Assembly (NCBI GenBank): GCA_017534535.1
Contig: JAFXVZ010000001.1
Coordinates: 1 to 64,000 of the forward strand
Length of the DNA: 64,000 bases
Direction: 5' to 3'
DNA from: Bacteroidaceae bacterium
GTDB lineage: Bacteria; Bacteroidota; Bacteroidia; Bacteroidales; Bacteroidaceae
Both the position numbers and the translations under genes were made by a program. Below the pieces are notes generated by a model. The model was given only the letters and a program-made list of their open reading frames with translations, searched no databases and had not been told where the DNA came from. This document shows positions 20,190 through 38,475 of the stretch, in pieces (positions within the stretch are counted from its first letter, which is position 1; every line of letters starts with the position of its first letter).

Positions 20190-20210
20190 TTTCTTAAACG
20201 GTATTAATTG

Positions 20211-21374
20211 TTAAACTTTAGCAACTCGTTTCTCACGCTTGCTGATATTGCTCTGAACCACATAGTAGTCAATCAGCGGAGCGAAGATATTCATCAACAG
20301 GATGGCGAGCATCATACCCTCTGGATAACCAGGGTTCAACACACGGATGACAATTGCCACCACACCGATGAGGAAGCCATAGATATACTTGCCACACTCA
20401 GTGCGAGCAGAGGTCACAGGGTCAGTAGCCATAAACACAGCACCGAAGCAGAAGCCACCCAATACCAGGTGTTCGTACCAAGGCACATTAGCCACAGCAT
20501 TGTCCATACCTGCAATATTGAATATCCAGGCCATCAGACCACCGCCAACAAATACGCTCAGCATAGTCTTCCAGCTGGCAACGCCCGTCCACAACAGAAT
20601 CACGGCACCAATGGCAATGGCAATCACACTGGTCTCACCGATTGAGCCAGGGATAAAGCCTGTCACCATGTCTGAGAAGTCATAGGTAATGTCCAAGCCA
20701 GTAGCAGCCTGACCCAGTGGAGTAGCCACTGTCAAGCCATCCACAGTCTTACCCAGACCGAAGATGCTGTCACCAGATACCCAAACGGAGTCACCAGACA
20801 TCTTAGTAGGATAAGCGAAGAACAGGAATGCACGGGTGATCAAAGCCACGTTGAACACATTCATACCTGTACCACCGAACACCTCTTTCGCAAAGATTAC
20901 GGCAAAAGCAGTTGCAATAGCCAGAATCCACAACGGACATTCAATTGGGACAATCAGCGGAATCAAAATACCAGATACCAGGAAACCTTCTTGAATCTCC
21001 TCATTCTTCCACTGTGCCACAGTGAATTCAATGCCGAGACCTACCACATAAGAAACAATGATTTTCGGCAACACTGCCAGGAAACCATAGAAGAACATCG
21101 CCCAGAAGTCACCCTCTGCGCCTGTAGCATGGAAATGCTGATAGCCCACGTTGTACATACCGAACAACATGGCCGGAATCAGCGCAATCACAACCAATGA
21201 CATGATTCGTTTGCTGTCAATGGCATCGTGGATATGCGTTCCGGATTTCGCTGTGCTATTAGGCACGAACAGGAAAGTCTCGAAGCCATCAAACACAGAG
21301 CGAAATGCGTGTAATTTGCCGCCTTCCTCGAAGTTCGGCTTTATCTTATCCAGATAATTTCTTAACGCGCTCAT
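20211..21374 (-). CDS. nqrB: Na+-NQR subunit B (FMN-bearing, membrane)
   Basis: A 387-residue subunit with about ten membrane helices that forms the Na+ pathway and binds riboflavin and covalent FMN. The segment VDGLTVATPLGQ corresponds to the flavinylation motif, giving Thr218 as acceptor, and IPGSIGETS follows at 241-249. It starts 29 bp after nqrA and ends 21 bp before nqrC. Confidence 0.95.
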   Translation of the reverse strand: MSALRNYLDKIKPNFEEGGKLHAFRSVFDGFETFLFVPNSTAKSGTHIHDAIDSKRIMSLVVIALIPAMLFGMYNVGYQHFHATGAEGDFWAMFFYGFLAVLPKIIVSYVVGLGIEFTVAQWKNEEIQEGFLVSGILIPLIVPIECPLWILAIATAFAVIFAKEVFGGTGMNVFNVALITRAFLFFAYPTKMSGDSVWVSGDSIFGLGKTVDGLTVATPLGQAATGLDITYDFSDMVTGFIPGSIGETSVIAIAIGAVILLWTGVASWKTMLSVFVGGGLMAWIFNIAGMDNAVANVPWYEHLVLGGFCFGAVFMATDPVTSARTECGKYIYGFLIGVVAIVIRVLNPGYPEGMMLAILLMNIFAPLIDYYVVQSNISKREKRVAKV

Positions 21375-21403
21375 ATTTTAGTTTTGAGTTTTTAAGTTTT
21401 TAG

Positions 21404-22756
21404 TTACGCCATTTCAGCACGAAGTGCATCCAGTCCTTCACGGACGATGCGCTGTACCTCAACCTTAGATGAACAAACGAACTCGCAAAGAGCGAAGTCC
21501 TCAGGAGCCACCTCATAGATGCCCAACGCCTCCATCTTGTCGATGTCGCCGGCGATGATAGCCTTCACCAGATATTCAGGATAGATATCCATTGGGAACA
21601 CACTGTCGTATTCACCAGACATGATCATGTGACGTTCGCCGCCCTTCACGCGTGCATCCATCACATACTCCTTCTTACCCTGCAGCCAGCTGAAATAAGA
21701 GCGGCTGGTACTGAATTCATTGAAACGAGGCATAATCCAACCGAGCATCTCGTGTACGTCATTACCCTCTGGAATAACGGTGAGCTGACTGTGGAAAGCA
21801 CCCAGATAGCTACCCTCGGCATTCACCTGCTTGCCAGTGAGTACATTGCCACTGATGTAGCGCAGGGTCTTACCAGTAGTTACATGTCCCTTGAAGATGC
21901 TGTCGAGCTTAGCACCCACCATCATCTTTACGTAGCAAGGCTTCACAAACTCAGAGCCTGTCAGCGCCACGGTGCGGGTCAGATCCACCTTACCGGTATT
22001 GAACAGGCGACCGATGAAGATCACGGCCTCAGCGCCAATCGTCCAAACCACCTCTCCCTTGTTTACAGGAGCCACATAGTTAATCTGCACACCTACATTG
22101 CCAGCAGGATGCGGACCGTCGAAAGCGGTGATGGTCACGCCTTGAGCCTGTGTCAGCGCAGCGGCTTTCTGGTTAACACTAACGCCTAAGTAAGTCTTGG
22201 CAATCTTTGCCAAAGCGTCGAGACCGGTCTGGAAGTTTGCCTCCTCTCCCTTCAACTGCAGCTCGAAGTCTGGAGCCAAAGGAGCGCTGTCAAACGCAGA
22301 CACGAAAATAGCACGGGGTGCATCGTTTGGGTTGGCAATCACATCATACGGACGCTGACGGAAGAAAGCAAACAGACCTGCTTCCAGCAACTCAGCCTTC
22401 ACCTCCTCAGCCTTGAGGCCGGAAACGGACTTCTTGCCGAAATCAACATACTGCTGCTCCTTGTCTGGAGTCACAATGATGTTCATCACCTTACGACGGG
22501 CACCTCGCTCAACGCTTGCAACCACGCCACTTACTGGCGAAACAAATTTCACTTCGGGGTGGTTCTTGTCAATAAACAAGGCTTCCCCTGCCAGAACATG
22601 TACCTGTTCTTTCACCACTACCTTAGGAGTGACGCCAGTGAAATCGTCGGGCACAAGAGAGTATGCATCCGCCGCTGGTACTGTAGTCACTTCATTGGCC
22701 GGCTTACCTTTCAGGTTGATGTCGAGGCCTTTGCGTAATTTAATTACATTTGCCAT
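21404..22756 (-). CDS. nqrA: Na+-NQR subunit A
   Basis: A 450-residue soluble subunit, first in the operon, beginning MANVIKLRKGLDINLKGKP as in homologues. The biotinyl-like fold at 35-105 and the FDGPHPAGNVGVQINYV region, typical of NqrA, are present, as is the C-terminal LCEFVCSSKVEVQRIVREGL. The start at 22756 was preferred over an in-frame codon at 22795, which would lie inside the promoter. Confidence 0.95.
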   Translation of the reverse strand: MANVIKLRKGLDINLKGKPANEVTTVPAADAYSLVPDDFTGVTPKVVVKEQVHVLAGEALFIDKNHPEVKFVSPVSGVVASVERGARRKVMNIIVTPDKEQQYVDFGKKSVSGLKAEEVKAELLEAGLFAFFRQRPYDVIANPNDAPRAIFVSAFDSAPLAPDFELQLKGEEANFQTGLDALAKIAKTYLGVSVNQKAAALTQAQGVTITAFDGPHPAGNVGVQINYVAPVNKGEVVWTIGAEAVIFIGRLFNTGKVDLTRTVALTGSEFVKPCYVKMMVGAKLDSIFKGHVTTGKTLRYISGNVLTGKQVNAEGSYLGAFHSQLTVIPEGNDVHEMLGWIMPRFNEFSTSRSYFSWLQGKKEYVMDARVKGGERHMIMSGEYDSVFPMDIYPEYLVKAIIAGDIDKMEALGIYEVAPEDFALCEFVCSSKVEVQRIVREGLDALRAEMA

Positions 22757-22792
22757 GCGATTATATAAATAATTAGTTTCCGATAATCTTTG

Positions 22793-22800
22793 CAAAATTA
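22793..22800 (-). promoter_or_regulatory. -7 element of the nqr operon
   Basis: The minus strand reads TAATTTTG, an exact consensus match 36 bp before the nqrA start codon. No other promoter was seen within the operon. Confidence 0.7.
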
Positions 22801-22812
22801 GTGAATATTTAA

Positions 22813-22859
22813 CAAAAAAACGAAGTTATTGCAGTTTATTTTCCGCAACAACCCCGTTT
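22813..22859 (-). terminator. Terminator of the C1 peptidase gene
   Basis: On the minus strand a stem of about 12-14 bp (arms 22845-22858 and 22818-22832, with a few G-T pairs) is followed by seven T residues (22813-22819 read in reverse), a good intrinsic terminator just upstream of the nqr promoter. Confidence 0.75.
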
Positions 22860-22903
22860 CTTTATCTTTTAAGATAAAACCAAGCCACAAATGTGGTCAT
22901 ATC

Positions 22904-24304
22904 TTACTCTTCCTCCGCAAACATTGGGTCCCAAGCAGGCAGCTTGGTTGGCTTCTGCTTCAGCAGCTCCTTCACCTTAGCTGTAACATAGCGACTCTCC
23001 ACCACCAGGCGGAACATATACTCATTGAACCATTCGTCGGTCATAATAAGGAAGCCCTGATAGCCGCGGTCAATACCCCAGCTGTTTTCCACCATCCATT
23101 TAGTCGGTTTGCCTGCCTTATCCAAATCCACCGCCGTCAAGGTCATCGCATGGGTAGAGCCACTGGCGAAAGTCTGAATGCGCTGCTTCTTGTCCATGCC
23201 GAAGGTGGTACCCATCAGTGAACCATAATCGAAGTTGTTCACATCCAGTAAACCCCGCTTTGAATCCTGGAACTTGCCCACATCGCAAGAAAAATACATC
23301 ATCGTATTGTCCTTCAAAGAAGCAATCGCCATTTCTTTAATCTCGTCAATAGGCAGATTTACATATACCCAGTTCTGTCCGTCGTAAGTGTGGCGGTCGA
23401 AGTCAATCTCGTAGGTCTTGTAATACTCGCGGGTAGGGTCGTTCATCAGCATCACATAGTCGGTGAGCAAACCCTTATCGCCATACTTCTCATAGAATGA
23501 CATTGGGGTATGGTGCTCGGTAGCCACTGGTTTGCCATCAGCGTCTTTGCGTACAAAATCAAACTCCTTGGGAGGGATGCCCAGATTCAGCACCAGCATA
23601 CGATACACCGTTGCCAGCATATCGGTCTTCTGCGCCTCCAAGTCTGCCTGTTTAACACCTTTCGAAGCATCGTCGCGAAGCTTCAGACCATACTCCTTCA
23701 GTTTCTGGGAAATCAGACTACGCATAGTGGATGTGTGATTACTGCTGTAAGTCTCTGGCATTACATCCTTGGGAACTAAGCCATATTTCTTTACCAAATC
23801 TGATACACCGCAGAAGGTACCGCCATCGCTCAGCGGATGCTGGAAGAGCCACTCCACCATCTTGTCGTCGATGGGTTGCTGACGAGTATCTATGACCCCC
23901 TGTAGGAACAAATTAGCTTTTTCCAACTGGTCGTAGAAGAAGGTATAGTTCTGAGAATATTCAAACACTGGCATACTGTACTGCTCAATAGCCTTGGCGC
24001 GCATCACATTCAAGCCAGTGAACAGCCAGCAGCGACCAGATGATGCCTGGTTGGTTATGCCCTTTGATTTTACTCGGATGGAGAAATTGGTATCCATCGC
24101 CTTCTGATTGTCCTGGTTGATTACGAGTGTACTGATGTCATTACTACCAATGGCATTGCGGATGGCTCTGTTGGCAGGCGTATCCTCGTAGCCCTTCTCA
24201 ATTTGCTGAAGCATACCTGCATCGATACCACCCTTGCCTGTCTGGGCATTGACAACAATAGCTGTAAATACCAATGTAATGGTCAGTAAAAAAATTTTCT
24301 TCAT
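22904..24304 (-). CDS. Secreted C1-family aminopeptidase (PepC/bleomycin-hydrolase-like)
   Basis: A 466-residue cysteine peptidase with a signal peptide (residues 1-20, ending VNAQ). The papain-type triad is visible: Cys92 in SSGRCWLF, His385 in GSTHAMTL and Asn407 in VENSWG. Similarity to bleomycin hydrolase/PepC rather than classical papains is shown by the N-terminal VINQDNQKAMDTNFSIRVK block and the C-terminal extension. It would act on peptides in the periplasm or outside. The start at 24304 gives the signal peptide; upstream frame text crosses a hairpin and is unlikely to be translated. Confidence 0.88.
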   Translation of the reverse strand: MKKIFLLTITLVFTAIVVNAQTGKGGIDAGMLQQIEKGYEDTPANRAIRNAIGSNDISTLVINQDNQKAMDTNFSIRVKSKGITNQASSGRCWLFTGLNVMRAKAIEQYSMPVFEYSQNYTFFYDQLEKANLFLQGVIDTRQQPIDDKMVEWLFQHPLSDGGTFCGVSDLVKKYGLVPKDVMPETYSSNHTSTMRSLISQKLKEYGLKLRDDASKGVKQADLEAQKTDMLATVYRMLVLNLGIPPKEFDFVRKDADGKPVATEHHTPMSFYEKYGDKGLLTDYVMLMNDPTREYYKTYEIDFDRHTYDGQNWVYVNLPIDEIKEMAIASLKDNTMMYFSCDVGKFQDSKRGLLDVNNFDYGSLMGTTFGMDKKQRIQTFASGSTHAMTLTAVDLDKAGKPTKWMVENSWGIDRGYQGFLIMTDEWFNEYMFRLVVESRYVTAKVKELLKQKPTKLPAWDPMFAEEE

Positions 24305-24325
24305 GGTTAGTATAAGATTTAACAA

Positions 24326-24357
24326 GTAAGCTCCAAAGCAACAGCTCTGGAGCTTAC
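24326..24357 (-). terminator. Hairpin between the carboxyltransferase and C1 peptidase genes
   Basis: GTAAGCTCCA (24326-24335) and TGGAGCTTAC (24348-24357) form a perfect 10-bp stem with a 12-nt loop, 22 bp before the peptidase start. It probably ends the upstream transcript; a leader role for the peptidase mRNA is possible. Confidence 0.55.
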
Positions 24358-24393
24358 CCAATTTATTCGTTGTTATGCTTTGCATCATTTTTA

Positions 24394-24442
24394 TCGCGAC
24401 TCGGCATAGCCCAAACAAGTTTGGTTCTGCACTCGCTGCTCC
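24394..24442. repeat. Dispersed hairpin element, copy 1
   Basis: TCGCGACTCGGCATAGC is followed by the apical stem CCAAAC-AA-GTTTGG and then TTCTGCACTCGCTGCTCC. The outer pairs GCGA/TCGC and GCA/TGC continue the hairpin. The flanks match copy 2 at 62269-62317, while the apical stem differs but still pairs. Confidence 0.7.
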
Positions 24443-24458
24443 TAAAAATCAATGTTCA

Positions 24459-26234
24459 TTATTCCTTGCTTTCCCTCTCAATATACGCCAGTACATCACC
24501 CTTATTAACGGTATCTCCCTGCTTAGCGCATATCTCGATAATCTTACCTGTAAAGTTAGCCTTCACCTCAGCCTGCTCGCCCCATAGCGTAGTGATATAG
24601 CAGAAGTGATCGCCCTCCGTAAACTTCTGACCGATAGCAGGAGCCAATGACGCGTTCACCACAACAATCTCCCACAGTACCTGACCGTTCACTGGAGCAG
24701 CTATAGGTTCAGCCTTAGCACGTTTCAGCTTCAGAATATCCTCTGGGTTGAAGCCCTGCTTAGCCATCGACGCATCCTTGGCCTTCTGCAAGTCGGCCTC
24801 GAAACGCTGCTTAGCCACACCGCTCTTGAATGGACGATACTGCTCTGGGTGCATAGCCAACTCGAACAGTTCCTCATCGTCTGGACCAGTCTCCCAGCCA
24901 TTCTCCTTCATTTCCTTACGGAAGTCATCCATATTGTCAGGATATAGAGCCTGCACATCACCCGTGAAGAACTCTAAGCCCTGCTCCTTAGCCAACTCCT
25001 TGATCTCAGGAGCCACCTCGCCAGGCAACTGACCGCTCTTACCCAGGATCATACCCCAGATGCTCTTGTCGGTCAACAAGCTATAGCGTGGTTTGCCCTG
25101 TGCCTCTGCCAAGATGTTCATCAGCGCGATGTTCTTAACATACTGGCTGAACGGAGTCACCAATGGAGGATAACCTACCTTAGGCCAAACATACTCTACT
25201 TCGTCGAACAACTTAACCACCACTTCGTCAATGGTCATCTCCGGCTTGCCCTGTGCCTTCAGTGACATATTGATAACAGGCATCATGCCCTTCATATCAG
25301 CCATCATAGAGCCCATCATACCACCTGGCAGACCACACTTCAGCAGCAATGAAGACATATGCTTGTTGCTTGGATCCATGAAGTAACCCAGGAAGTCGTC
25401 GATGAACTCCTGCGTCAAGGCGCGAGCTTCCATATACGCCTTCATATTAATGTCCTTAACCAGGAAGCCGGCATCCCTCAGCATCGCCTGGATGGTGATT
25501 ACGTCTGGATGAACCTTTCCCCAAGACAGAGGTTCCATAGCCACATCGATGACATCCACACCAGCCTCAGCGACTTCCAGCATAGAAGCCACTGACAGAC
25601 CCGGACCACTATGGCCGTGATACTGTACAATGATCTCAGGATGGCGTTCCTTGATGTTCTTGGTCAGCTGACCCAGTGACCAAGGACGACCGATACCTGC
25701 CATATCCTTTAAACAGATTTCCTGTGCGCCAGCCTCAATCAGCTTGTCGGCTAACTTGGTATAATATTCAACAGTATGAATCGGAGAATAAGTAATACAG
25801 AGGGTGGCCTGTGGAGTCATACCACCTTCCAGTGCATACTTGATAGAAGGGATAATGTTGTTGGCATCGTTCAAGCCATCGAAGATACGGGTAATGTCAA
25901 CTCCCTGAGCATGCTTAACCTTATACATCAGTTTACGGACATCCACCGGGCAAGGATACATACGCAATGCGTTCAATCCGCGATCGAGCATATGTGTCTT
26001 AATACCCACCTCATTGAAAGGCTTGGTGAAAGCGCGAACTGCCAAGTTAGGATTCTCGCCATACATCAGGTTTACCTGCTCGAAGGCACCACCATTGGTT
26101 TCCACACGGTCAAAGCAACCCATTTCGATGATAACAGGAGCAATACGTTCCAACTGGTCTTTTCTGGGCTGGAACTTGCCTGAACTCTGGAACATGTCTC
26201 GATAGAGGAGACTGAATTGGATTTCTTTCTTCAT
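24459..26234 (-). CDS. OadA/PycB-type carboxyltransferase, no visible biotin lysine
   Basis: A 591-residue protein of the pyruvate carboxylase B/oxaloacetate decarboxylase alpha/transcarboxylase 5S family. The TIM-barrel metal site is seen in YRDMFQSS (Asp13, Gln16), the carbamylated-lysine region LKDMAG (Lys176) and YHGHSGPG (His206, His208). The C-terminal 75 residues fold like a biotinyl domain, but where the family has EAMKM this protein has ITTLWGEQAEV (547-557), with no lysine. The substituted flanks (HGHSGPG in place of HTHDTSG, SWGKVHPDV) mark a divergent subgroup. A separate biotin carrier may exist elsewhere. Exact substrate (pyruvate, oxaloacetate or acyl-CoA) is open. Confidence 0.8.
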   Translation of the reverse strand: MKKEIQFSLLYRDMFQSSGKFQPRKDQLERIAPVIIEMGCFDRVETNGGAFEQVNLMYGENPNLAVRAFTKPFNEVGIKTHMLDRGLNALRMYPCPVDVRKLMYKVKHAQGVDITRIFDGLNDANNIIPSIKYALEGGMTPQATLCITYSPIHTVEYYTKLADKLIEAGAQEICLKDMAGIGRPWSLGQLTKNIKERHPEIIVQYHGHSGPGLSVASMLEVAEAGVDVIDVAMEPLSWGKVHPDVITIQAMLRDAGFLVKDINMKAYMEARALTQEFIDDFLGYFMDPSNKHMSSLLLKCGLPGGMMGSMMADMKGMMPVINMSLKAQGKPEMTIDEVVVKLFDEVEYVWPKVGYPPLVTPFSQYVKNIALMNILAEAQGKPRYSLLTDKSIWGMILGKSGQLPGEVAPEIKELAKEQGLEFFTGDVQALYPDNMDDFRKEMKENGWETGPDDEELFELAMHPEQYRPFKSGVAKQRFEADLQKAKDASMAKQGFNPEDILKLKRAKAEPIAAPVNGQVLWEIVVVNASLAPAIGQKFTEGDHFCYITTLWGEQAEVKANFTGKIIEICAKQGDTVNKGDVLAYIERESKE

Positions 26235-26272
26235 ATTATCTTTAAATTTTACCTATTTATCTAAAATTACGG

Positions 26273-26280
26273 CAAAGATA
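26273..26280 (-). promoter_or_regulatory. -7 element of the carboxyltransferase gene
   Basis: The minus strand reads TATCTTTG, 38 bp before the start codon. Confidence 0.65.
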
Positions 26281-26362
26281 CAACAATATTTTAAATCAGC
26301 CTAACAATTTGCTCATTTTTTTACAACTGAAATCAGACAGAACTAAAATCTGTCAATTATTG

Positions 26363-26632
26363 CTATTCCACCACGCCAGCCTCCTGCCATTCGGAAACGA
26401 TTCCCTGCACATCGGCCAAAGCTTCTGCTGTCGTTACATCGTATTCCTCACTGAGTTTGCTTGCCAAAGAATCAAAGGTAAAATCTCCCATTTCGACAGC
26501 TTGTTTCCACAACCACGCCGCCGTTTCATTGAGGCACAACAGACGTCCAAAGTCAATCGCCCCAAGGCCCTCACCCATAATTACCTGCTCGCCGCACACT
26601 TCTCGCAGCACAAATCCTTTTTTCAGTTTCAT
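26363..26632 (-). CDS. PqqD-like (RRE) small protein
   Basis: An 89-residue protein with the PqqD fold: an N-terminal winged-helix strand pair, LGAIDFGRLLCLNETAAWLW near 23-42 where PqqD proteins have the conserved L-N-x-x-A/T-x-x-W, and a C-terminal helical part. PqqD-like domains (RiPP recognition elements) hold precursor peptides for modifying enzymes. It is the last gene of the operon starting with a small glycine-rich peptide at 30428, and its ATG overlaps the stop of the S24/S26 peptidase (ATGA). A recognition role for that peptide is inference. Confidence 0.8.
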   Translation of the reverse strand: MKLKKGFVLREVCGEQVIMGEGLGAIDFGRLLCLNETAAWLWKQAVEMGDFTFDSLASKLSEEYDVTTAEALADVQGIVSEWQEAGVVE

Positions 26633-27060
26633 AATCTTCTATAAATTGCTAATAAATATCTTCTTATCGGTTTCAACAGCCACCAGACCTTCGCCCCAAA
26701 ACGCTGCCATCTGCCATATAGGTAGCGGGTATGACCCTTGGCACTTACCACATGGGTAGCCAATGCCTTGACATCATTAAGCAGGCAACACTCTGTACCC
26801 AATAAATTACCATCGCCCATCAGTGTCACCTGATCTCCTTCGATGCGGATAATGCGGTGAATGACAAAACGACAGCCGTCAACCCAAGCCAGCACCACAT
26901 CGCCAATCTTGGACTGTCCGGGCTTTTGCAGAATCACACTCTCCTTTCCACCAATAATGAAAGGCAACATACTGTTCCCCTTGACGGGCAGTGTAACACT
27001 GATGCCTTCTTCAACCAGCCTAATAGCCTCTTGTATAATTATCTGATCGTTGTCAATCAT
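26629..27060 (-). CDS. S24/S26-family (signal-peptidase-like) peptidase
   Basis: A 143-residue protein. The catalytic Ser30 lies in VKGNSMLPF, the S26/S24 signature, followed by GDVVLAWVDGCRFVIHRI, where His68 occupies the place that holds Lys in classical bacterial type I signal peptidases; Ser-His pairs are known in archaeal and ER-type enzymes. A basic C-terminal segment (KPIRRYLLAIYRRL) could sit on the membrane. In this operon it could cut the peptide or a partner (inference). It starts 33 bp after the kinase stop, with a heptanucleotide array in the gap. Confidence 0.75.
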   Translation of the reverse strand: MIDNDQIIIQEAIRLVEEGISVTLPVKGNSMLPFIIGGKESVILQKPGQSKIGDVVLAWVDGCRFVIHRIIRIEGDQVTLMGDGNLLGTECCLLNDVKALATHVVSAKGHTRYLYGRWQRFGAKVWWLLKPIRRYLLAIYRRL

Positions 27061-27071
27061 ATCAATTAATC

Positions 27072-27113
27072 GTCAATTGTCAATTGTCAATTGTCAATTG
27101 TCAATCGTCAACC
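27072..27113 (-). repeat. Heptanucleotide array at the kinase 3' end
   Basis: Six units: four GTCAATT, then GTCAATC and GTCAACC. On the minus strand these are TTGACNA-type units that encode the last residues (LTIDN) and the stop of the kinase gene and fill the gap to the next start codon. Confidence 0.85.
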
Positions 27114-27951
27114 TACAAAGCCTTGCCGCATCCTCATTTGGTAAGCAATCCAAAAACCACATAGGCACATGCCCAGCCAACCAGTTCTCCGTCTGGTGCA
27201 ATCCATCCGCAATGCCCTTATCCCATCGTTTGCCACTGATGCTGAGTATCAACGACGCATACGCCTCGATGCCACTCATTCGTCTGATGCTATTATGGGG
27301 TGCCTGGTTCAACTGTACCATCCCACCGACAGGCATGGAAACATTCCGATAGCAGGGAGTCTTGCCACTCCAAGGTGACCCATAGACAATAGCCTCGCCC
27401 TGAGCTGAGATTCTCACCACAGGATTATCGTCGTTCACCAATTCCGTCCCTTCAATGTGCTGTAGCCAAAGCCTCGCATGGGTACTCTTACCCGTTCCGC
27501 TAACACCCAAGAAAAGATAGCCCTTTCCTTGGCACGACACTACGGCAGCGTGAAACAAAGCCGTCTGCTGGTTAGCAGTGGCAAGCGCATAGAGTACCAT
27601 CAAGGCATTATCAATGGCAAACTTCTCATCATAGCCAGTGGTAATCAACTCAGCGCTGCTATAGTCGGCAGCGCAGACCACCCACCCAGCCGTTTGCCCT
27701 ATCAAACCGAACTCAAACACAGGTCTTTTGTCAGGCGTATGGCCGCAAATTATTATCTGCCCTTCGTCTTCTTGCCTGATTTCCTCTTCATAGGCTGGTG
27801 CCTCACCGCTACTAATGGTCAACTCAAACACCAAATTGTCAGTTGGCTCGCAGATGAAAGGTTCGTAGTTGCGCATCAGCTTCAGCAACTCCACTTGGGC
27901 ACATACGGCAAACACATGGTCTGCCACTCTAAAATATTTTGTTATCTTCAT
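27094..27951 (-). CDS. HPr-kinase-like protein kinase
   Basis: A 285-residue protein of the HprK/PckA-like P-loop group, without the N-terminal HprK regulatory domain. The P-loop FLGVSGTGKST is at about 147-157 and LVNDDNPVV (about 171-179) supplies the acidic metal-binding pair. In some Firmicutes lasso-peptide clusters HprK-like enzymes phosphorylate the precursor peptide; the same arrangement (peptide, kinase, nucleotidyltransferase, PqqD-like protein) is seen here. The target is therefore possibly the 45-residue peptide (inference). Its ATG overlaps the preceding stop (ATGA), and its last residues are encoded by a repeat array. Confidence 0.8.
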   Translation of the reverse strand: MKITKYFRVADHVFAVCAQVELLKLMRNYEPFICEPTDNLVFELTISSGEAPAYEEEIRQEDEGQIIICGHTPDKRPVFEFGLIGQTAGWVVCAADYSSAELITTGYDEKFAIDNALMVLYALATANQQTALFHAAVVSCQGKGYLFLGVSGTGKSTHARLWLQHIEGTELVNDDNPVVRISAQGEAIVYGSPWSGKTPCYRNVSMPVGGMVQLNQAPHNSIRRMSGIEAYASLILSISGKRWDKGIADGLHQTENWLAGHVPMWFLDCLPNEDAARLCRLTIDN

Positions 27952-29051
27952 CGTTTTAAATCAGATAATGAAAATGTTCTGTATTTAATTCGTTCTGGGA
28001 TGGTACGCGCCACCTGCTTCACATAATGCAGTTCCAAGCAGACAACCTCCCAGCAGTTGAAAGGTAGCAGTTGCAGATGCCTGAACTTGGTTTTTGAAAC
28101 ACGCTTCCAGGAATGAAAACCTGCCCGTTCAGCAAACCACCCAAAGTTACCGCCATCCATAACGTCCTGCAGCACCCTCTCGCCCCATTTGCTGTCTGGA
28201 GGACAGAGCATCAGCAGCTTGTCCAGATGCAGCACTTCCTGCAACACCCACATCAGCGCCCCAGCCATACGCTGTAAGCCAAAGGATTTCAGCAGACCAC
28301 CCACCGTTTTCCGGTCATCGGCACTGGCATTGTTCAACAGCCAGTAGTAATCCACTATCTGCCTGATGCCTATGCCTTCCTCTAAGAAATGTCGCTGGAT
28401 ATGTGCCAATTGCATTACCAAAGCAAACCTACAGGTGGGTACATTAAATCCCTCTTCAACGGGGGTAAGAATTCCTATTTCAGTTCCCAGCCACTGTTGC
28501 AGACGGCGGTTGGTAAATGGGTTAAAGTTTCCCGAAGCCGGTTGGTAATGAACCTCCACCACCACGCCGTTCTCATCGGCAGGGAGCTGTATATGATAGT
28601 CATATCTGTCCACATCCAAGTCCCCGGGGAAGGCCTTCAGGCAGAAATCCACCACACGCTGATAACCGCCCTCCACCCAGATGTCAATGTCGCCAGGCTG
28701 TCGCAGCAGCTTGTCGGGATAGAGTCGCGCATTGGCTTGGCCTTTCAGGATGGCAGTCTGGAAGCCAGCCTCTGCGAAGAGTCGTGTGAGCCTTGCCGCC
28801 TCGCTGTTCAGCAAAGCGTTCAGTCCACGGATGGCTTCCACCTCGCTTGCCCAGGGCAGTGCCACATCCATCGGCACCGGCTGTCTGGTTGCCTCGGCGA
28901 AGCATACGCCTAAAAGCGACTGGCGAGTGGCGGCATCATACAATTGCCGCCACTCGTCAGCTATAGGCTTCATCTTAAACTCTTCGATGCCCAATGCTGC
29001 CCGTAGCAGCGCAAACAACGTATTGTCAACTTGGGTCATATAAAACAACAT
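27948..29051 (-). CDS. Nucleotidyltransferase family protein (NTP_transf_5-like)
   Basis: A protein of about 367 residues. The nucleotidyltransferase-like core has AILKGQANARLYPD and the metal-binding LLRQPGDIDIW near 116-125, then a helical C-terminal region. This family (uncharacterised nucleotidyltransferase, PF14907-type) accompanies HprK-like kinases in several peptide clusters. What is transferred and to what is not known; adenylylation of the peptide or of a phosphate on it is speculation. The ATG at 29051 overlaps the upstream lipoprotein stop; ATG at 29036 is an alternative. Confidence 0.8.
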   Translation of the reverse strand: MLFYMTQVDNTLFALLRAALGIEEFKMKPIADEWRQLYDAATRQSLLGVCFAEATRQPVPMDVALPWASEVEAIRGLNALLNSEAARLTRLFAEAGFQTAILKGQANARLYPDKLLRQPGDIDIWVEGGYQRVVDFCLKAFPGDLDVDRYDYHIQLPADENGVVVEVHYQPASGNFNPFTNRRLQQWLGTEIGILTPVEEGFNVPTCRFALVMQLAHIQRHFLEEGIGIRQIVDYYWLLNNASADDRKTVGGLLKSFGLQRMAGALMWVLQEVLHLDKLLMLCPPDSKWGERVLQDVMDGGNFGWFAERAGFHSWKRVSKTKFRHLQLLPFNCWEVVCLELHYVKQVARTIPERIKYRTFSLSDLKR

Positions 29052-30271
29052 CAAAGACTTGTCTGACCACCGTAGCTTTTCCTACCGAAGGAGACAGGGG
29101 TCAAAGGCACATTACTGTTAAAATAATAAAAGTTACCTTTTACGACCGTCAAATCCGCACGTTCAAACTGATATTTTTTAGCACCTACCGTAGCCATAAG
29201 AGTAAGCGTTGAACTGCTGAACGCAGGCATAGCCACAAACAGCTCATCTGTTTCCGCTGACGGCTTTACCGTATAAGTATGGGTGCCATCGCTCACAATC
29301 AGTTCAGTAGCCTTGAGTGCCTGAGTAGGATCAGCGGCATCCACCAGTTTGAATAAGAAGATGACCTGTTGGTTCTCGAAATTAGCGTAAGTGGTGACGA
29401 TATCAGTATCCTCTATACCATCCACGGTGACAGTAGCTGTTGCATAGTTGCATTTTTCTGCTATGTAATCAAGGGTTCCGTCCTGTCCCGAATACTTCGG
29501 CTCGAGGTACTTCAATGTAAGCGTAGCACCTACCGACGGTATCTTGTCAGCATCCACAACACCTGTAAACGTGGTGGTAGATGAACCATAGCTTTGAGGG
29601 GTAAGGGTTCCTATAGGAGTCTCACCGTCATATACTACCACCTGATCACCCTCTCCCCATGCGGCGTCAATGTTTTTATTGGTAACATCATACGAAAGTG
29701 CGCGTGTATTGGCAGCATCCCTAAAACCCGCATTAATGGTCAGGGTATAAGACGTAGGAGTATTAACCGGATAATCCGGCTCATCGAATATGTTTTCAAA
29801 AGGATCTTGATTCACAGGCTCCACAGGAACAGTCGGCTCCACAGGAACGGTCGGTTCCTCTGGAACTGGTGTAACATCTGGCACATCCCCTACTCCTTCT
29901 TGTGGCTCAGGGTCAGCTGGTACCTCTGGCGTACCACTTGGCTGCTCCGAATCAACTGGTACCTCTGGATTGTCCGTTGGCAATTCAGGGTCAGTCGGGG
30001 TCTCAGCATCTACTACTGGTTGATTAGGGTCAGCTGGCGTTTCCGTTGTTTCCCCAGGCTGCCCTGGGTCAGCCGGGGTCTCGGTGGTTTCGTCTGTCTG
30101 TTCTGTAACAGCAGGCACGTCGGTAGCCTCCTTCTGACCGTTACTTGCAGATGTATCTGTCCTTACCGGAACAAGTATCTGGTCAGCCATATCATCTGCA
30201 CAAGCATTTAAGGATGCTCCTGCACAAAACAAGGCACATCCCATCAAAAAATAGTGGAATAATGTCTTCAT
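29051..30271 (-). CDS. Lipoprotein with proline/acid-rich repeats and a fimbrillin-like domain
   Basis: A 406-residue lipoprotein (signal 1-24, lipobox LNAC). Residues about 45-165 are a low-complexity stalk of repeated P-rich, E/D-rich units such as TPADPGQPGE and VPVDSEQPS. Residues about 175-400 form the same domain as the three neighbouring paralogues: SYTLTINA, AAWGEGDQVVVYDGETPIG, QDGTLDYIAEKCNYATATV and FENQQVIF match theirs. It is thus an anchored surface protein, perhaps a carrier or display partner for the short peptide before it. An AGGAGG ribosome-binding site precedes its start, and the stop overlaps the nucleotidyltransferase start. Confidence 0.8.
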   Translation of the reverse strand: MKTLFHYFLMGCALFCAGASLNACADDMADQILVPVRTDTSASNGQKEATDVPAVTEQTDETTETPADPGQPGETTETPADPNQPVVDAETPTDPELPTDNPEVPVDSEQPSGTPEVPADPEPQEGVGDVPDVTPVPEEPTVPVEPTVPVEPVNQDPFENIFDEPDYPVNTPTSYTLTINAGFRDAANTRALSYDVTNKNIDAAWGEGDQVVVYDGETPIGTLTPQSYGSSTTTFTGVVDADKIPSVGATLTLKYLEPKYSGQDGTLDYIAEKCNYATATVTVDGIEDTDIVTTYANFENQQVIFLFKLVDAADPTQALKATELIVSDGTHTYTVKPSAETDELFVAMPAFSSSTLTLMATVGAKKYQFERADLTVVKGNFYYFNSNVPLTPVSFGRKSYGGQTSL

Positions 30272-30279
30272 TTCTTTAT

Positions 30280-30285
30280 CCTCCT
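30280..30285 (-). promoter_or_regulatory. Strong Shine-Dalgarno of the operon lipoprotein
   Basis: The minus strand reads AGGAGG, 8 bp before the ATG at 30271. Such strong sites are scarce in this window, so the lipoprotein may be translated at a high rate relative to its neighbours. Confidence 0.6.
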
Positions 30286-30290
30286 AATTA

Positions 30291-30428
30291 TTATAAACCA
30301 TTACCAGAATAACCGGGCAATTGACCACCACCGGGGGTAGTACCATTCAGCAAGGCCTGGCGTTTCTGAACCAACTTAATCACCTTCATGGAAGGTCTCT
30401 CATAATTTCTTTTTTTGTTCTTTTCCAT
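30291..30428 (-). CDS. Short glycine-rich peptide, candidate RiPP precursor
   Basis: A 45-codon frame too short for usual gene calling. It starts with the basic MEKNKKRNYERPSMKVIKL, then a middle QKRQALLNG, and ends in a glycine/proline-rich tail (TTPGGGQLPGYSG at 30-42). The layout, a charged leader with YExPxxxVxxL followed by a Gly-rich C-terminus, resembles small Bacteroidales peptides that sit beside PqqD-like and kinase genes. It lies directly behind a consensus promoter (30449-30456) and 19 bp before the operon lipoprotein, so it is the first gene of the operon. Ser41 or Ser13 would be candidate phosphorylation sites. Its role as a modified precursor is inference. Confidence 0.7.
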   Translation of the reverse strand: MEKNKKRNYERPSMKVIKLVQKRQALLNGTTPGGGQLPGYSGNGL

Positions 30429-30448
30429 ACTCTAAAATATTATCACGA

Positions 30449-30456
30449 CAAAGATA
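30449..30456 (-). promoter_or_regulatory. -7 element of the peptide-kinase operon
   Basis: The minus strand reads TATCTTTG, with TTGTG about 18 bp upstream as -33 element. The peptide ATG is 21 bp downstream. Confidence 0.7.
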
Positions 30457-30574
30457 CAACTTTTTTTTATTTCTCACAACTATTCTCAGCTATTATTTGG
30501 TAATGACATCGCAGTTGCCCCATTTGAGCACAATAACTTGCTATACATTACAACTTTCTTGCCCTGGACTCGCG

Positions 30575-31909
30575 TCAATTAGGATAGCTGCCGCTGATGG
30601 TATTCTCCTGCACGCTGACAGTGCCGCAAGTGCTGTCCTGGCCGCCACCAGGACCGATATCCCACGGGCTATTTGAATCACCTTCAGCTTGACCTGAGGC
30701 GGTGCCGTTGATGATGATGTCACCGCAGCCACCTTCATATCCGCTGCCGATGCCGGCTGCTAGACGGCTGCCCGAGGCGGTGATGGTGCCACCAGTGATA
30801 CTAATACTGCCACAACTACCATTTTCTCCACTGCCGATGCCGGCACCTCCACTGAGACCCATGGCAGTGATGGTGCCACCGGTGATGCTGATATTGCCAC
30901 AACTACCATTTTTTCCGCTGCCGATGCCGGCTGCTAACCCGCCACCCGTGGCGGTCAGCGAGCCTGTGCCATTGATGGAGGCTTTGTACAGCGTGATGCT
31001 TGCGCCGTCTGCGACGGATATCTTGTACCTATTATCGGTTGCACCCATCAGCACATCACCGTCCTGGGCAACGTAATGGCCGGTAAGCTTTGAGAGATCC
31101 ACCAGATTGCCTTTCGCCATCTGCATGGTCAAGGTGTAGTACTTACCTCTTTCTATCGTGGCGTTTTCACGCACAAAGGTATAAATATCTGTACCATTAG
31201 TGGCTGTCATGGAAATGTCCTTTTCACTGAAGCTTGGGAGGGCAACGAAAACCTCGCCCGTGGAAGCTGTGGGCTGAATGGTGTATGTACGACCATTAGC
31301 TGCGACTATCATCTCCGTGGCGCTGATGGCGATGCCTGCATCGTCATGCAGGGTAAACTTCACGATGGACTGTTGGTTCTCGAAGTCGGCTACCGTGGTG
31401 GTGACATCGGTGCCGTTGATATTCGTTACCTTGACGGATGCCGTGGCATAGTCGCAGTGGGCGGCGATGTAGTCGAGGGTTCCGTCCTGGGTGGCGTAAT
31501 CTGGAGAGAGGAACTCCAGGGTCAGCTCGTCACCCACCTCCACACCGGACACCTCGCCTTTCAGTATGGCATGAGCCACATTGTCCTCCTGTGGCTTCAG
31601 CTCACCCACTTTCGTGTCACCTTTAAATACATAGATGGTGTCCGTAGTCATCCAAACGGCATCCAGGCTTTCCTCAGCAGTGCCTTCGTCTGCCAGTATC
31701 AAAGCCTTGGTCGTCGCTTCGCCTTTGGTGGCATGCACGGTCAGGGTGTAGGTCTAGGAGGAGGTGGTGGTGGTAGTGGCAGCAGTACTGACTGCAGGCA
31801 CTTCGTACTCAACCAATGTCTCGTTGGTGCACGCGGTGAATAGACCCAGTGTTATAACCAGCACCGTCAGGGCAGTAGCTGCCAGAATTGACTTCTTTCT
31901 CATTTCCAT
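30575..31909 (-). pseudogene. Fimbrillin-like/beta-helix lipoprotein, copy 1, with amber codon
   Basis: The frame from ATG 31909 encodes MEMRKKSILAATALTV, a lipoprotein signal with LFTAC, then reaches TAG at 31754-31756 (codon 52), exactly where copy 2 has CAG (Gln) in SSQTYTLTV. Downstream the frame is open for 393 codons: a fimbrillin-like domain (QDGTLDYIAAHCDYATASV, FENQQSIVKF) and a C-terminal glycine-rich part made of GAGIGSGENGSCGSISITGG-type repeats, probably a right-handed beta-helix. The N-terminus of copy 2 is nearly identical. Unless the codon is suppressed or re-initiation occurs, no exported protein is made. Confidence 0.75.
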
Positions 31910-32021
31910 TATCAAATCTATTTTTTTATTTAATTATTTTTTTGTTCTGTCCGTAAATATAATGTATGGATTTGGCAAGGTTTATCCGACTAAACATAAG
32001 TCGCAGCCCGGCATCACCTCA
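31872..32021. repeat. Duplicated 5' segment, downstream copy (pairs with 33601-33750)
   Basis: About 150 bp covering the first codons of copy 1 and its upstream region are almost identical to 33601-33750, at an offset of exactly 1729 bp. Similarity stops at CACCTCA on both sides. This marks the unit of a tandem duplication that produced copies 1 and 2. Confidence 0.8.
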
Positions 32022-32042
32022 TGCCCGACCTTGGAAACCAGA

Positions 32043-33638
32043 TTAATTATTGTATCCAAATATTCTCATCCCGTCAATGTAACAATCATCCTGCACAACG
32101 ACAGATATGCATCCGCCACTCTCAGCCCTTGGGCCAATATCATAAGCTTCGCTGCCACCGGATACTATGCCATAGCCAATATCAGCGATAAAGATGTGGC
32201 CACATAAACCACCAATGCCTGCTCCACCACTGCCACTACGTGCTTCGATATAGCCAACATTGATATAGATGTCACCACAGCCAGCCACGCTTCCGCTGCC
32301 GATGGCTGATCCACCATTACTACCATTAGCATAAATGAGAGAAGCAGTGACGCTGATATCACCACAACGACTATTTCTTCCGCCACCGATGCCCGCTCCA
32401 CCATCGCCTCCATGTGCTTCGATATAGCAATAAAGATCATTGATATAGATGTCACCACAGCCAGCCCCACTTTCATATCCTCCGCCGATACCTGCTCCAC
32501 CACTGCCACCATAGGCATAGATAGATCCTCTTCCGTTAATGGTGAGGATTGTGTTTTTGGGACCAGCCTGGATGCCAGGAGAACCATCGCTGCATGCATT
32601 CACCACATTATCCCCGACAAGGGTGATGGTGGCATGACCCAGGCAGGTGATGCCAGCCCACGGGGTATCACCACTAATATTCTTGCCTGCATTGATGTAC
32701 GCATCGCTCAGCGTGACAAACGCCCCATCTGCAATGGATATTTTAATGCTATTATCGATTTCACCAGTCAGTATATCACCGCTCTGAGCCACATAATCCT
32801 CAGAAAGCGTTGAGAGATCCACCACCTTGCCCACCACCTTGTCCATCTGCATGGTCAGGGCGTAGTACTTCCCATTTTCTAGGGTGGCGTTTTCACGAAC
32901 AAAGGTATAGATGTCTGTACCATTGGTGGCTGTCACCTGAATGTCCTTTTCACTGAAACCTGGGAGGGCAACGAAAACCTCGTTCGTGTCAGCAGAGGGC
33001 TTAATGGAACATACATGACCATCAGCTGAAACAAACATCTGCGTGATGCTGATGTCTGCATCTGGGTTGTCATTGTCCTGCAGGGTAAACTTCACGATGG
33101 ACTGCTGGTTCTCAAAGGCGGCACCCGTGGTGGTGACTTCGGTGCCGTTAATTTCCAACACTCTGACGGATGACGTGGCGTAGTCGCAGTTGGTGGAGAT
33201 GTAGTCGAGGGTTCCGTCCTGGGTGGCGTTTGTCGGAGAGAGGAACTTCAGGGTCAGCACGTCATTCAACGCCACATCAATCACCTTGCCTTTCAGTAAA
33301 GTCTGAGCCACATTGTCTTCCTGTGGCTTCAACAAACCCACATACGTATCACCTTTATATACACCAATGGTTTCCGTAGTCATCCAAACGGCATCCAAGC
33401 TTTCCTCAGCGGTGCCTTCGTTTGCCAGTATCAAAGCCTTGGTAGCCGCTTCGCCTTTGGTGGCATGCACGGTCAGGGTGTATGTCTGGGAGGAGGAGGT
33501 GGTAGTGGCAGCAGTACTGACTGCAGGCACTTCGTACTCAACCAATGTCTCGTCGGTGCACGCGGTGAATAGACCCAGTGCTATAACCAGCACCGTCAGG
33601 GCAGTAGCTGCCAGAATTGACTTCTTTCTCATTTCCAT
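32043..33638 (-). CDS. Fimbrillin-like/beta-helix lipoprotein, copy 2 (intact)
   Basis: About 531 residues from ATG 33638. The lipoprotein signal is MEMRKKSILAATALTVLVI with LFTAC; then a fimbrillin-like domain (about 55-280) and a C-terminal region (about 290-520) of glycine-rich repeats such as GGSGGAGIGGGYESGAGCGD and CGDIYINV that probably form a beta-helix or carbohydrate-binding stack. It should be an outer-membrane-anchored surface protein. It is the only intact full-length member of the trio. The upstream region has only a weak -7 element (TATATTTA); expression may depend on read-through. Confidence 0.8.
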   Translation of the reverse strand: MEMRKKSILAATALTVLVIALGLFTACTDETLVEYEVPAVSTAATTTSSSQTYTLTVHATKGEAATKALILANEGTAEESLDAVWMTTETIGVYKGDTYVGLLKPQEDNVAQTLLKGKVIDVALNDVLTLKFLSPTNATQDGTLDYISTNCDYATSSVRVLEINGTEVTTTGAAFENQQSIVKFTLQDNDNPDADISITQMFVSADGHVCSIKPSADTNEVFVALPGFSEKDIQVTATNGTDIYTFVRENATLENGKYYALTMQMDKVVGKVVDLSTLSEDYVAQSGDILTGEIDNSIKISIADGAFVTLSDAYINAGKNISGDTPWAGITCLGHATITLVGDNVVNACSDGSPGIQAGPKNTILTINGRGSIYAYGGSGGAGIGGGYESGAGCGDIYINDLYCYIEAHGGDGGAGIGGGRNSRCGDISVTASLIYANGSNGGSAIGSGSVAGCGDIYINVGYIEARSGSGGAGIGGLCGHIFIADIGYGIVSGGSEAYDIGPRAESGGCISVVVQDDCYIDGMRIFGYNN

Positions 33639-33750
33639 TATCAAATCTATTTTTTTATTTAATTATTTTTTTGTTCTGTCCGTAAATATAATGTATGGCT
33701 TTGGCAAGGTTTATCCGACTGAACATAAGTCGCAGCCCGGCATCACCTCA
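33601..33750. repeat. Duplicated 5' segment, upstream copy (pairs with 31872-32021)
   Basis: Near-identical to 31872-32021. Here its far end runs into the 3' part of copy 3 and supplies that gene's last codons and stop. Confidence 0.8.
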
Positions 33751-34604
33751 TTACCCCCATCAAGGGTGATGGTGAGAGCTGAGAGATCCACCACCTTGCT
33801 CACCACCTTGTCCATCTGCATGGCCAGGGTGTAGTACTTCCCATTTTCCAGGGTGGCGTTTTCACGCACAAAGGTATAGATGCCTGTACCATTGGTGGCT
33901 GTCACCTGAATGTCGTTTTCACTAAAGCCGGGGAGGGCAACGAAAAACTCGTTCGTGTCAGCAGAGGGCTTAATGGAACATACATGACCATCAGCTGAAA
34001 CAAACATCTGCGTGATGCTGATGTCTGCATCAGGGTTGTCATTGTCCTGCAAAGTAAATTTCACGATGGACTGCCCGTTCTCAAAGTCGGCTCCCGTGGT
34101 GATGACTTCGGTGCCGTTAATTTCCAACACTCTGACGGATGACGTGGAGTAGTCGCAGTTGGTGGAGATGTAGTCGAGGGTTTCGTCCTGGGTGGCGTAT
34201 GCCGGAGAGAGGAATTTCAGGGTAAACATGTCATTCAACGCCACACCGGACACCTCGCCTTTCAGGGAGGTATGAGACACATGGTCTTCCTGGGGACTCA
34301 AAAAACCTATATATTTGTGATCTTTATATACGCGAATTTTATCCGTAGTCTTCCAAACGGCATCCAGGCTTTCCTCAGGGGTGCCTGGATTATTCAATAT
34401 CAATGCCCTGGTCGCCGCCTCGCCCTTGGTGGCATGCACGGTCAGGGTGTAGGTGTTGGGAGGGGAATGAGAAAAGGCTGTCCTGGCAACAGGTGCCTCG
34501 CATTCAACCAATGTCTCATCGGTGCAGGCGGTGAGCAGACCCAGTGCTACAACCAACACCATCAAGGCAATAGCTGCCAGTTTTGACTTCTTTCTTATTA
34601 CCAT
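33711..34604 (-). pseudogene. Fimbrillin-like lipoprotein, copy 3, lacking the beta-helix part
   Basis: 297 codons from ATG 34604. It has the lipoprotein signal (LLTAC) and the whole fimbrillin-like domain (HATKGEAATRALI, QDETLDYISTNCDYSTSSV), but after KVVDLSALTITLDGG the sequence runs into the duplicated segment and ends with EVMPGCDLCSVG. The glycine-rich C-terminal domain of its paralogues is missing, probably deleted at the duplication junction. The remaining protein could still be exported, so it may be a functional short form. It has a consensus promoter (34632-34639), the best of the three. Confidence 0.65.
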
Positions 34605-34631
34605 TTTTACATGTGTATTTTTTTCAGTTTG

Positions 34632-34639
34632 CAAATGTA
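34632..34639 (-). promoter_or_regulatory. -7 element of lipoprotein copy 3
   Basis: The minus strand reads TACATTTG, with TTTTG about 20 bp upstream. It could drive copy 3 and, by read-through, copies 2 and 1. Confidence 0.65.
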
Positions 34640-34686
34640 ATGAATTATTTTGGATTTTGCAAGGAAACATGGAAAAACGGGAAGAG

Positions 34687-34735
34687 TTGACGATTGACCA
34701 TTGACGATTGACCATTGACCATTGACCGTTGATTG
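34687..34735 (+). repeat. Heptanucleotide array
   Basis: Seven consecutive units: TTGACGA, TTGACCA, TTGACGA, TTGACCA, TTGACCA, TTGACCG, TTGATTG. Confidence 0.85.
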
Positions 34736-34910
34736 TTAAACTCCCCACCAGTTATGAGCAAGCTACGTCTGAAGGAACGGACTCACTTCCCTGGTTATCT
34801 GTTGCTTAGGGTGTTTTCCTCCACTTCAACAGGGACTTCAGATTTTTTTTTGCTGTTTTAGTTACATAGTTACACTATGCTTGTTGATTACTTGATACTT
34901 ATTGCCTTTA

Positions 34911-34945
34911 TGCCAGTGTAACTTTTCTATAAAGTTACACTGGCA
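34911..34945. repeat. Perfect 15-bp inverted repeat
   Basis: TGCCAGTGTAACTTT (34911-34925) and AAAGTTACACTGGCA (34931-34945) are exact reverse complements around TCTAT. There is no gene directly upstream on either strand that would need a terminator. Confidence 0.8.
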
Positions 34946-34964
34946 TACACTACCATACACTACC

Positions 34965-34985
34965 ACCAAAACAACTTGTTTTGGT
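34965..34985. repeat. 21-bp dyad, copy A
   Basis: ACCAAAACAA and TTGTTTTGGT are exact reverse complements around a single central C; GTGAG follows. Copy B at 35032-35052 has the central G, so each is the exact complement of the other. Confidence 0.8.
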
Positions 34986-35031
34986 GTGAGAGAATACTAT
35001 ACTAACACCTGTCAGAAAGCAATATAACGAG

Positions 35032-35052
35032 ACCAAAACAAGTTGTTTTGGT
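35032..35052. repeat. 21-bp dyad, copy B
   Basis: Same arms as copy A with a central G, again followed by GTGAG, 67 bp downstream. The pair could be operators or recombination sites. Confidence 0.8.
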
Positions 35053-35303
35053 GTGAGCACATTACTTTTCCCTGATGATGGAATCATGGTTTCGACTCTG
35101 ACACTTGCCTATGTTTTCCCTTTGCGCAAGCATTATTTGCCAAATTAGTGTAACTTTATTAAAAAGGTACACCGCTGTAAATTGTTAATAAACAATACAC
35201 TAACACAAAAAGTGTAACTATGTAACTTTTTTCATCAAAAAATTTTGTATTGTGTTAGGCTTAGATAAAATATGATGCGCGGTGAGCGTGAGTATGCTAT
35301 AGC

Positions 35304-36971: not shown

Positions 36972-36993
36972 CTTACGAATGTATTATTTACCG

Positions 36994-37001
36994 CAAAAAT
37001 A
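36994..37001 (-). promoter_or_regulatory. -7 element of the surface-protein gene
   Basis: The minus strand reads TATTTTTG, 22 bp before the start codon at 36971. Confidence 0.65.
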
Positions 37002-37329: not shown

Positions 37330-37337
37330 TATGTTTG
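37330..37337 (+). promoter_or_regulatory. -7 element of the epimerase-like gene
   Basis: TATGTTTG, 26 bp before the ATG at 37364. Confidence 0.6.
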
Positions 37338-37363
37338 CACTTGAATAAACTAATGATTAGGAA

Positions 37364-38455: not shown

Positions 38456-38475
38456 GAAGATTGAAGAATGAATAA

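Follow-up and report, generated by a model that had tools for sequence, protein, structure and literature searches.

A six-gene operon of a Bacteroidaceae genome as the probable representative of a Bacteroidota branch of the linear polyphosphorylated peptide pathway, with scattered precursor genes often paired with surface-protein genes

Linear polyphosphorylated peptides (LPPs) were described in May 2026 from the lpp cluster of Paenibacillus alginolyticus, and the parts of that paper available to us (PMC13381572) show by experiment a cyclase-free system with a kinase that modifies a short peptide and a leader protease. The same parts call LPPs and paeninodins restricted to Bacillota and the role of LPPs unknown, and the main text contains no word beginning with 'bacteroid' (PMC13381572); we found no second publication on the term in the open-licence literature, which does not cover bioRxiv. 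Here we describe a minus-strand operon at positions 26,363 to 30,428 of a 64,000-nucleotide stretch from a Bacteroidaceae bacterium (assembly GCA_017534535.1, contig JAFXVZ010000001.1; the whole stretch is called the window below), and consider it probable that it belongs to a Bacteroidota branch of the LPP-type pathway for ribosomally synthesized and post-translationally modified peptides (RiPPs), with many precursor genes dispersed over the genome and one or two enzyme cassettes to process their products. An earlier note on this DNA had read the operon as a cyclase-free, lasso-type variant acting on a short peptide, with a kinase as modifier and an S26 enzyme as leader protease, and the LPP precedent together with conserved diagnostic residues argues for that reading; its description of the system as unrecognised no longer stands, the LPP type having already been published from Bacillota. 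The open reading frame (ORF) list and direct reading confirm the six genes of the note within its coordinates, with short gaps or overlaps at the junctions:

30291..30428, minus: putative precursor peptide, 45 aa, leader plus variable tail (ORF; genus and order peptide profiles; leader-only profile)
30393..30404, minus: YERP, the YxxP motif of the leader (direct reading)
30336..30347, minus: NGTT, at the site of the usual small-small-Ser motif of relatives (peptide alignment A5)
29051..30271, minus: companion surface lipoprotein, 406 aa (hydrophobic N-terminus ending in Cys)
27948..29051 (ATG start) or 27948..29054 (TTG start), minus: PF14907 nucleotidyltransferase (NTase; NTP_transf_5, E 1.9e-35)
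27094..27951, minus: putative HprK-like peptide kinase (motif residues in relatives)
27484..27507, minus: kinase P-loop GVSGTGKS (direct reading)
26629..27060, minus: SpI/S26-type putative leader peptidase with Ser30, His68 and Asp83 (PF00717 over cut-off)
26363..26632, minus: PqqD-like RiPP recognition element (RRE), lasso B1/LppB-like, with Asn35 and Asp74 (PF05402)

The PqqD-like protein (PF05402, E 2.5e-12) and the S26 protein (Peptidase_S24, PF00717, E 2.4e-6) match their profiles over the cut-off, the kinase matches Hpr_kinase_C below it (E 3.6e-4), and the NTase is LppN/PsmN-like by family name and setting. In the kinase we found that H134, G152, G154, K155, S156, D174 and D175 are kept in 35 of 35 relatives from named loci, with G149 present in 22 of these 35 and otherwise replaced by Ala, and among 31 homologues from the genus H134 is kept in 30, G149 in 31, S156 in 30, D174 in 28 and D175 in 30. 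The H-G-G-G-K-S-D-D motif that the accessible part of one report gives for the lasso kinase BsfK (PMC10368454) is conserved here. Compared with solved structures the kinase profile finds mostly ABC P-loops, with HprK 1ko7 at E 0.027, and among the matches listed its nearest named relatives are those of RUG405 (66%) and Prevotella sp. RGIG3792 (61%), nearer records possibly lying outside them; going by these relatives, the DNA probably comes from a member of the Prevotellaceae living in the rumen. In the S26 protein Ser30, His68 and Asp83 are present in 16 of 16 relatives, and by order and motif rather than by direct alignment they correspond to S29, H68 and D93, which LppS needs according to the available text (PMC13381572). 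No membrane helix is apparent at its N-terminus, and its best solved-structure matches are signal peptidases including SEC11, all of them weak (E 0.003-0.04).

In the RRE, Asn35 is found in 30 of 30 PqqD proteins and Asp74 in 28 of 30 (the other two being gaps), and in a second set each is found in 17 of 18; on alignment to 9x8z_B, which is LppB, N33 and D70 fall on N35 and D74 provided that the construct has 18 extra residues, and this assumed 18-residue tag fits both positions. As far as the source is accessible, D70 of LppB bonds the YxxP Tyr, N33 bonds the Pro kink, and N33A nearly abolishes binding, while paeninodin-type RREs have Gly at the Asn position (PMC13381572); with Asn instead of Gly, the RREs described here are therefore not of the paeninodin type. 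The four best solved-structure matches of the PqqD profile are all lasso B1 or LPP RREs. Such a lasso-type RRE, along with the YxxP leader, might suggest that the peptides are precursors of a degenerate or split lasso pathway whose cyclase and B2 protease are encoded elsewhere in the genome, and in the parts of PMC7533575 and PMC9266682 at hand a kinase and an NTase are typical lasso accessories. We regard this as very improbable, since a B2 protein (PF13471) over cut-off occurs in only one of 60 genomes labelled as the same genus (G038), which has neither a kinase nor a peptide match. Matches of PF13471 below cut-off in G015 and G016 sit in 449-aa frames, with none in the window's genome, and the Asn-synthase matches of that genome are a strong one on contig C31, a weak one on C33 and a weak one on C17 about 15 kb from a second cassette described below, with none on the window's contig. 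A plain lasso pathway was rejected on the missing B2 protein and these Asn-synthase positions. In G038 the B2 match lies beside a PqqD match (contig C3, about 863190-863800), probably a true lasso cluster.

The peptides themselves share a leader and a fixed position after it. Besides the start Met, the Tyr and Pro of YxxP are the only columns at least 90% conserved among 33 peptides. A leader-only profile, reaching as far as +15 from the Tyr and run on 17286 small ORFs, finds 69 peptides, many of them from few genomes, and 60 of these have Ser or Thr at +19 from the Tyr (Ser in 56), the row of locus L080, which a spurious upstream Y..P puts out of register, being counted against. Ser/Thr do not exceed 9% at positions 0-18 or 22% at any position of the tail after +19, which is dispersed in composition with much Gly, Asp, Glu and Pro. 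The +19 Ser/Thr is also present in 24 of 26 peptides whose leader stretch differs from every training row, and 13 further peptides from other genomes (14 matches from 30 loci, one without YxxP being dropped; 15 of the 45 matches had no locus) have Ser at +19 or +20 in every case, with two small residues before it in 12. The accessible text on Bradymonadales lasso precursors places YxxPxL at -17 to -12 (PMC10368454), and if that register holds, +19 would be core residue 3; it is core Ser3 that BsfK phosphorylates and, in the available parts of the LPP paper, LppK as well (PMC10368454, PMC13381572). On an alternative reading of the same motif, small-small-Ser may be a protease site. For the window peptide, whose match to the genus and order profiles is not independent because both contain it, and which matched nothing in Pfam or NCBIfam at E 1, NGTT is a possible candidate for the phosphorylation or processing boundary.

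Peptide and kinase occur together across genomes. Among the 60 genus genomes the kinase is found in 27 and members of the peptide family, located with a genus profile built from 14 peptides, in 22, with both, peptide only, kinase only and neither in 21, 1, 6 and 32 genomes (Fisher 7e-10; kinship is ignored in this and the following tests). The 37 genus genomes with completeness of 90% or more and contamination of 5% or less give 12, 1, 1 and 23 (9e-8). Across 295 genomes of the order, of which 41 have the kinase and 14 the peptide, the corresponding counts are 11, 3, 30 and 251 (2.8e-8), and with the window's genome removed the kinase is present in 10 of 13 peptide genomes (1.6e-7); the 11 order genomes with both are spread over nine family labels. 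Peptides are often numerous, with 14 matches in G053, 8 in G036 and 18 in uncultured Prevotellaceae RUG405. The window's genome has seven on five contigs (C2, C17, C20 and two each on C36 and C43), along with a second cassette on C17 (locus L035) encoding an exporter, NTase, PqqD and kinase, and together these led us to reject a self-contained one-operon system. We did not find S26 within 18 kb of the C17 cassette, and the window locus has the NTase and S26 and lacks the exporter, so the two loci seem to complement each other, with S26 in one and the exporter in the other.

The cassette recurs: in 34 regions around other kinase matches of the genus, blastp labels give S26 in 24, PqqD in 22 and NTase in 20, and an ABC-transporter cluster is present in 23 of 35 regions, the window counted. 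Among 52 named loci S26 is labelled in 46, PqqD in 43, ABC in 27 (some of these genes being distant) and NTase in 7. With S26 and PqqD counts high and those of NTase and ABC lower in the named loci, we take the core to be kinase, S26 and PqqD, with NTase and exporter optional in the locus, and a peptide-modifying role of this cassette is likely. In locus L044 (6609-7970) kinase and S26 share a single open frame of 453 aa, a natural domain fusion unless it is an assembly error. As a marker, PF05402 alone was rejected as too common, matching 52 of 60 genus genomes. Many of these matches, with a start at profile position 12-16, seem to be a separate protein; those beginning at position 10 or earlier, a split made by eye, occur in 22 of 22 peptide genomes, among them G032, the one without a kinase match, and in 8 of 38 others. 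A set of 31 PF14907 loci from a Lachnospiraceae genome and further genomes of the same phylum includes four kinase-RRE-NTase sets that resemble paeninodin-type lasso clusters and four loci (L221-L224) with an S26-type protease gene beside a long PF14907 gene, and in none of the 31, whose flanks are short, were S26 and RRE found together. Variant cassettes with a gene that by eye is radical SAM-like occur at L037 (4299-8109), L066 and L068; in L037 and L066 the peptide adjoins PqqD, S26, kinase and the radical SAM-like gene, and further peptide modification is likely at these two.

The earlier note had named homologous operons without a conserved small peptide upstream as evidence against its reading. 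A peptide lies within the fetched flank in 9 of the 52 named loci at E up to 3 (L107, L090 and L093 being weak), so that 43 are without one at this lax threshold and within that flank, yet seven of seven genomes checked, among them Hoylesella shahii and Alloprevotella sp. Lung230, carry peptide matches elsewhere (E up to 0.01, some weak), six of them having none near the kinase.

Several further observations weigh against an LPP-like pathway of this kind. The kinase occurs without a detected peptide in 6 of 27 genomes of the genus and in 30 of 41 of the order, and in the 52 named loci an NTase label is missing from 45 and an ABC label from 25. The RRE profile scores far better on the actinobacterial lasso protein TfuB1 (34.2 bits, E 1.9e-7) than on LppB (14.8 bits, E 0.21), other lasso and LPP RREs being weak, and its Asn and Asp are common in lasso and PQQ RREs and thus do not single out LPP. 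In the part of the source at hand the LPP leader consensus is YxxPxVLxHQxIxFETxxS, with Ser at +18 and the cut after Thr; the leader after YxxP here differs from it and the Ser is mostly at +19. The +19 count is itself partly subject to selection, as the profiles that locate most peptides (A2/A5) include the Ser column. The window peptide has Asn at +19, Gly at +20 and Thr at +21 and +22, and five of the nine peptides without the +19 Ser/Thr come from the window's genome, four of these having Ser/Thr at +20; for LPP, the available text reports that an S3T variant is not phosphorylated (PMC13381572).

The kinase genomes without a detected peptide would also fit a trio of kinase, S26 and PqqD that acts on some other substrate, for instance a capsule or envelope component, with the peptides merely tracking the same lineages and lipoproteins. 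A Wza-like export gene, named by eye, lies near the cassette in 10 of 35 regions, and at L056, L062, L064 and L067 kinase homologues sit in polysaccharide-export loci beside a NusG/UpxY-like gene (again by eye), with PqqD not found at these four; perhaps the kinase family has a second role there. We nevertheless think another substrate unlikely for the trio, in that the leader has the YxxP that such RREs bind and the RRE residues are conserved, a fixed Ser/Thr follows the leader, the peptide adjoins PqqD in L037 and L066, and LPP clusters are themselves often in capsule loci, as stated in the accessible text (PMC13381572).

Many of the peptides are encoded beside a gene for a probable surface protein. 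For 63 of the 69 peptides a downstream ORF of at least 150 aa starts on the same strand, -40 to +350 nt from the peptide end, and a rule-based lipobox is found in 56 of these 63 ORFs; among the remaining genes of these regions the rule flags 48 of 348 (p 4e-32). The rows of the window, L038, L155 and L065 were scored 'other' and stand outside the 56, being lipoprotein-like by eye; the companion of the window peptide, which starts 19 nt after it, was likewise called by eye without a flag from the automatic lipobox rule. The regions L121-L160 were fetched by peptide position and so carry no selection for lipoproteins. Thr-Arg within residues 26-110 occurs in 49 of the 56 paired lipoproteins and in 12 of 48 background lipoproteins, and Thr-Arg in this N-terminal stretch is a fimbrillin feature. 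In the 13-peptide set a rule-flagged lipobox gene lies downstream in 3 only. A literature search for small proteins with fimbrillin, or fimbrillin with RiPP, found nothing relevant. The earlier note had cast the lipoprotein as a carrier of the peptide, and of this the frequent pairing stands while the carrier role is unsupported. At locus L194 (2231-3553) a peptide is in frame with a secreted protein, nuclease-like by eye, in 440 aa, which may be a natural fusion protein joining the two or else a pair of overlapping genes.

This arrangement invites the view that the peptides are unmodified regulatory leader ORFs acting by translational coupling or attenuation on the lipoprotein genes, for they are short, 51 of the 56 flagged lipoprotein genes start no more than 70 nt after them, and in G053 twelve of 14 peptide-lipoprotein operons (L121-L131 and L063; L132 and L133 differ) share a near-identical upstream region. 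For eight of these twelve peptides the contig ends 241-442 bases away, which looks as though this repeat had interrupted the assembly. We give leader ORFs very little credence, since the amino-acid motif is kept from Bacteroidales to Sphingobacterium, the peptide is tied to kinase and PqqD, and several peptides are downstream of a secreted-protein gene, where attenuation of that gene is impossible. Such peptides directly follow secreted-protein genes in RUG405 and Prevotella sp. MGM1, and in Hoylesella shahii locus L191 has a tandem of three genes for secreted proteins of about 1255 aa, and a similar peptide comes 12-13 nt after each of them; of the other peptides of that genome two stand before lipoproteins and one is without a neighbour on its strand.

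In the LPP-like pathway that we infer, the PqqD-like RRE would bind the YxxP leader as a β-strand and hand the peptide to the HprK-like kinase, which would phosphorylate, perhaps repeatedly, Ser/Thr at the leader/core boundary (+19 in most members). The S26 protease might then cut the leader off, the PF14907 enzyme, where encoded, could add a group to the phosphate, and the MsbA-type ABC exporter of the C17 cassette may export the short linear core; at the cell surface the product would presumably work together with the co-encoded surface lipoprotein or secreted protein. We would further propose, tentatively and as a possibility short of a likely one, that each fimbrillin-like lipoprotein or secreted-protein gene has its dedicated phosphopeptide, that a single common kinase-RRE-protease set matures them all in trans, and that they serve the assembly, display or variation of the surface protein instead of being released products. 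The LPP machinery in Bacteroidota, with many precursors tied to surface-protein genes, would if confirmed extend the LPP family to another phylum, offer a concrete lead to LPP function with the genome itself naming the partner protein, and account for a large set of 35-75 aa peptides in gut and oral Bacteroidota.

Two further features belong to the operon in the window:

30456 to 30449, minus: putative promoter -7 element TATCTTTG (direct reading)
27068..27111, strand not given: heptamer array, 6.3 copies, spanning the kinase end and the kinase-S26 gap (repeat search)

The putative -7 element fits the Bacteroidetes consensus TAnnTTTG. Of the three ATGA overlaps in the earlier note, two are ATGA (27948-27951 and 26629-26632), and the third, between lipoprotein and NTase, is TTGATG at 29049-29054, giving a 4-nt overlap with the TTG start and a 1-nt overlap with the ATG start; kinase and S26 do not overlap and are separated by a 33-nt gap inside the heptamer array. 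A second heptamer array (34687-34732; both have 6-7 copies) lies at the far end of a cluster of three paralogous lipoprotein-like genes upstream of the peptide (30575-34748), two with β-helix-type repeats. The copy nearest the peptide has its N-terminal part at 31754-31915 and the rest at 30575-31738, in different frames. An Rfam search of 20000-40000 gave no match.

Set against known systems, the closest families apart from LPP are the phosphorylated lasso peptides (paeninodin, pseudomycoidin and Bsf), which share the kinase, NTase, RRE, ABC exporter and a YxxP/WxxP leader; unlike in these, no macrolactam cyclase or B2 cysteine protease was found here, and an S26 serine protease is present instead. 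SynChlorMet and HprK-related cassettes likewise pair an HprK-related protein with a PqqD-like partner, and the kinase matches to their families (TIGR04249 ScmC, TIGR04352 and TIGR04355) are weak, at 19-24 bits far below the cut-offs of 125-200; a search of the SynChlorMet literature found nothing usable. With LPP the system shares an SpI-like leader peptidase with Ser, His and Asp, a discrete RRE, an HprK-like kinase, a YxxP leader, a conserved Ser near the boundary, a variable C-terminus, the lack of a cyclase and a frequent capsule-locus setting. The NTP transferase and MsbA-like exporter of LPP have counterparts in the window's genome, where the exporter belongs to the C17 cassette. The system differs in that its NTase and exporter are often unlabelled in the locus, three loci add a radical SAM-like gene, and its RRE profile is no closer to LppB than to lasso B1. 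Judged from sequence, the system would work like LPP, and a common branch and an independent assembly are both possible. What is new relative to LPP is the host, Bacteroidota here and Bacillota there, and a genomic architecture in which the precursors are mostly scattered and many are paired with a surface-protein gene.

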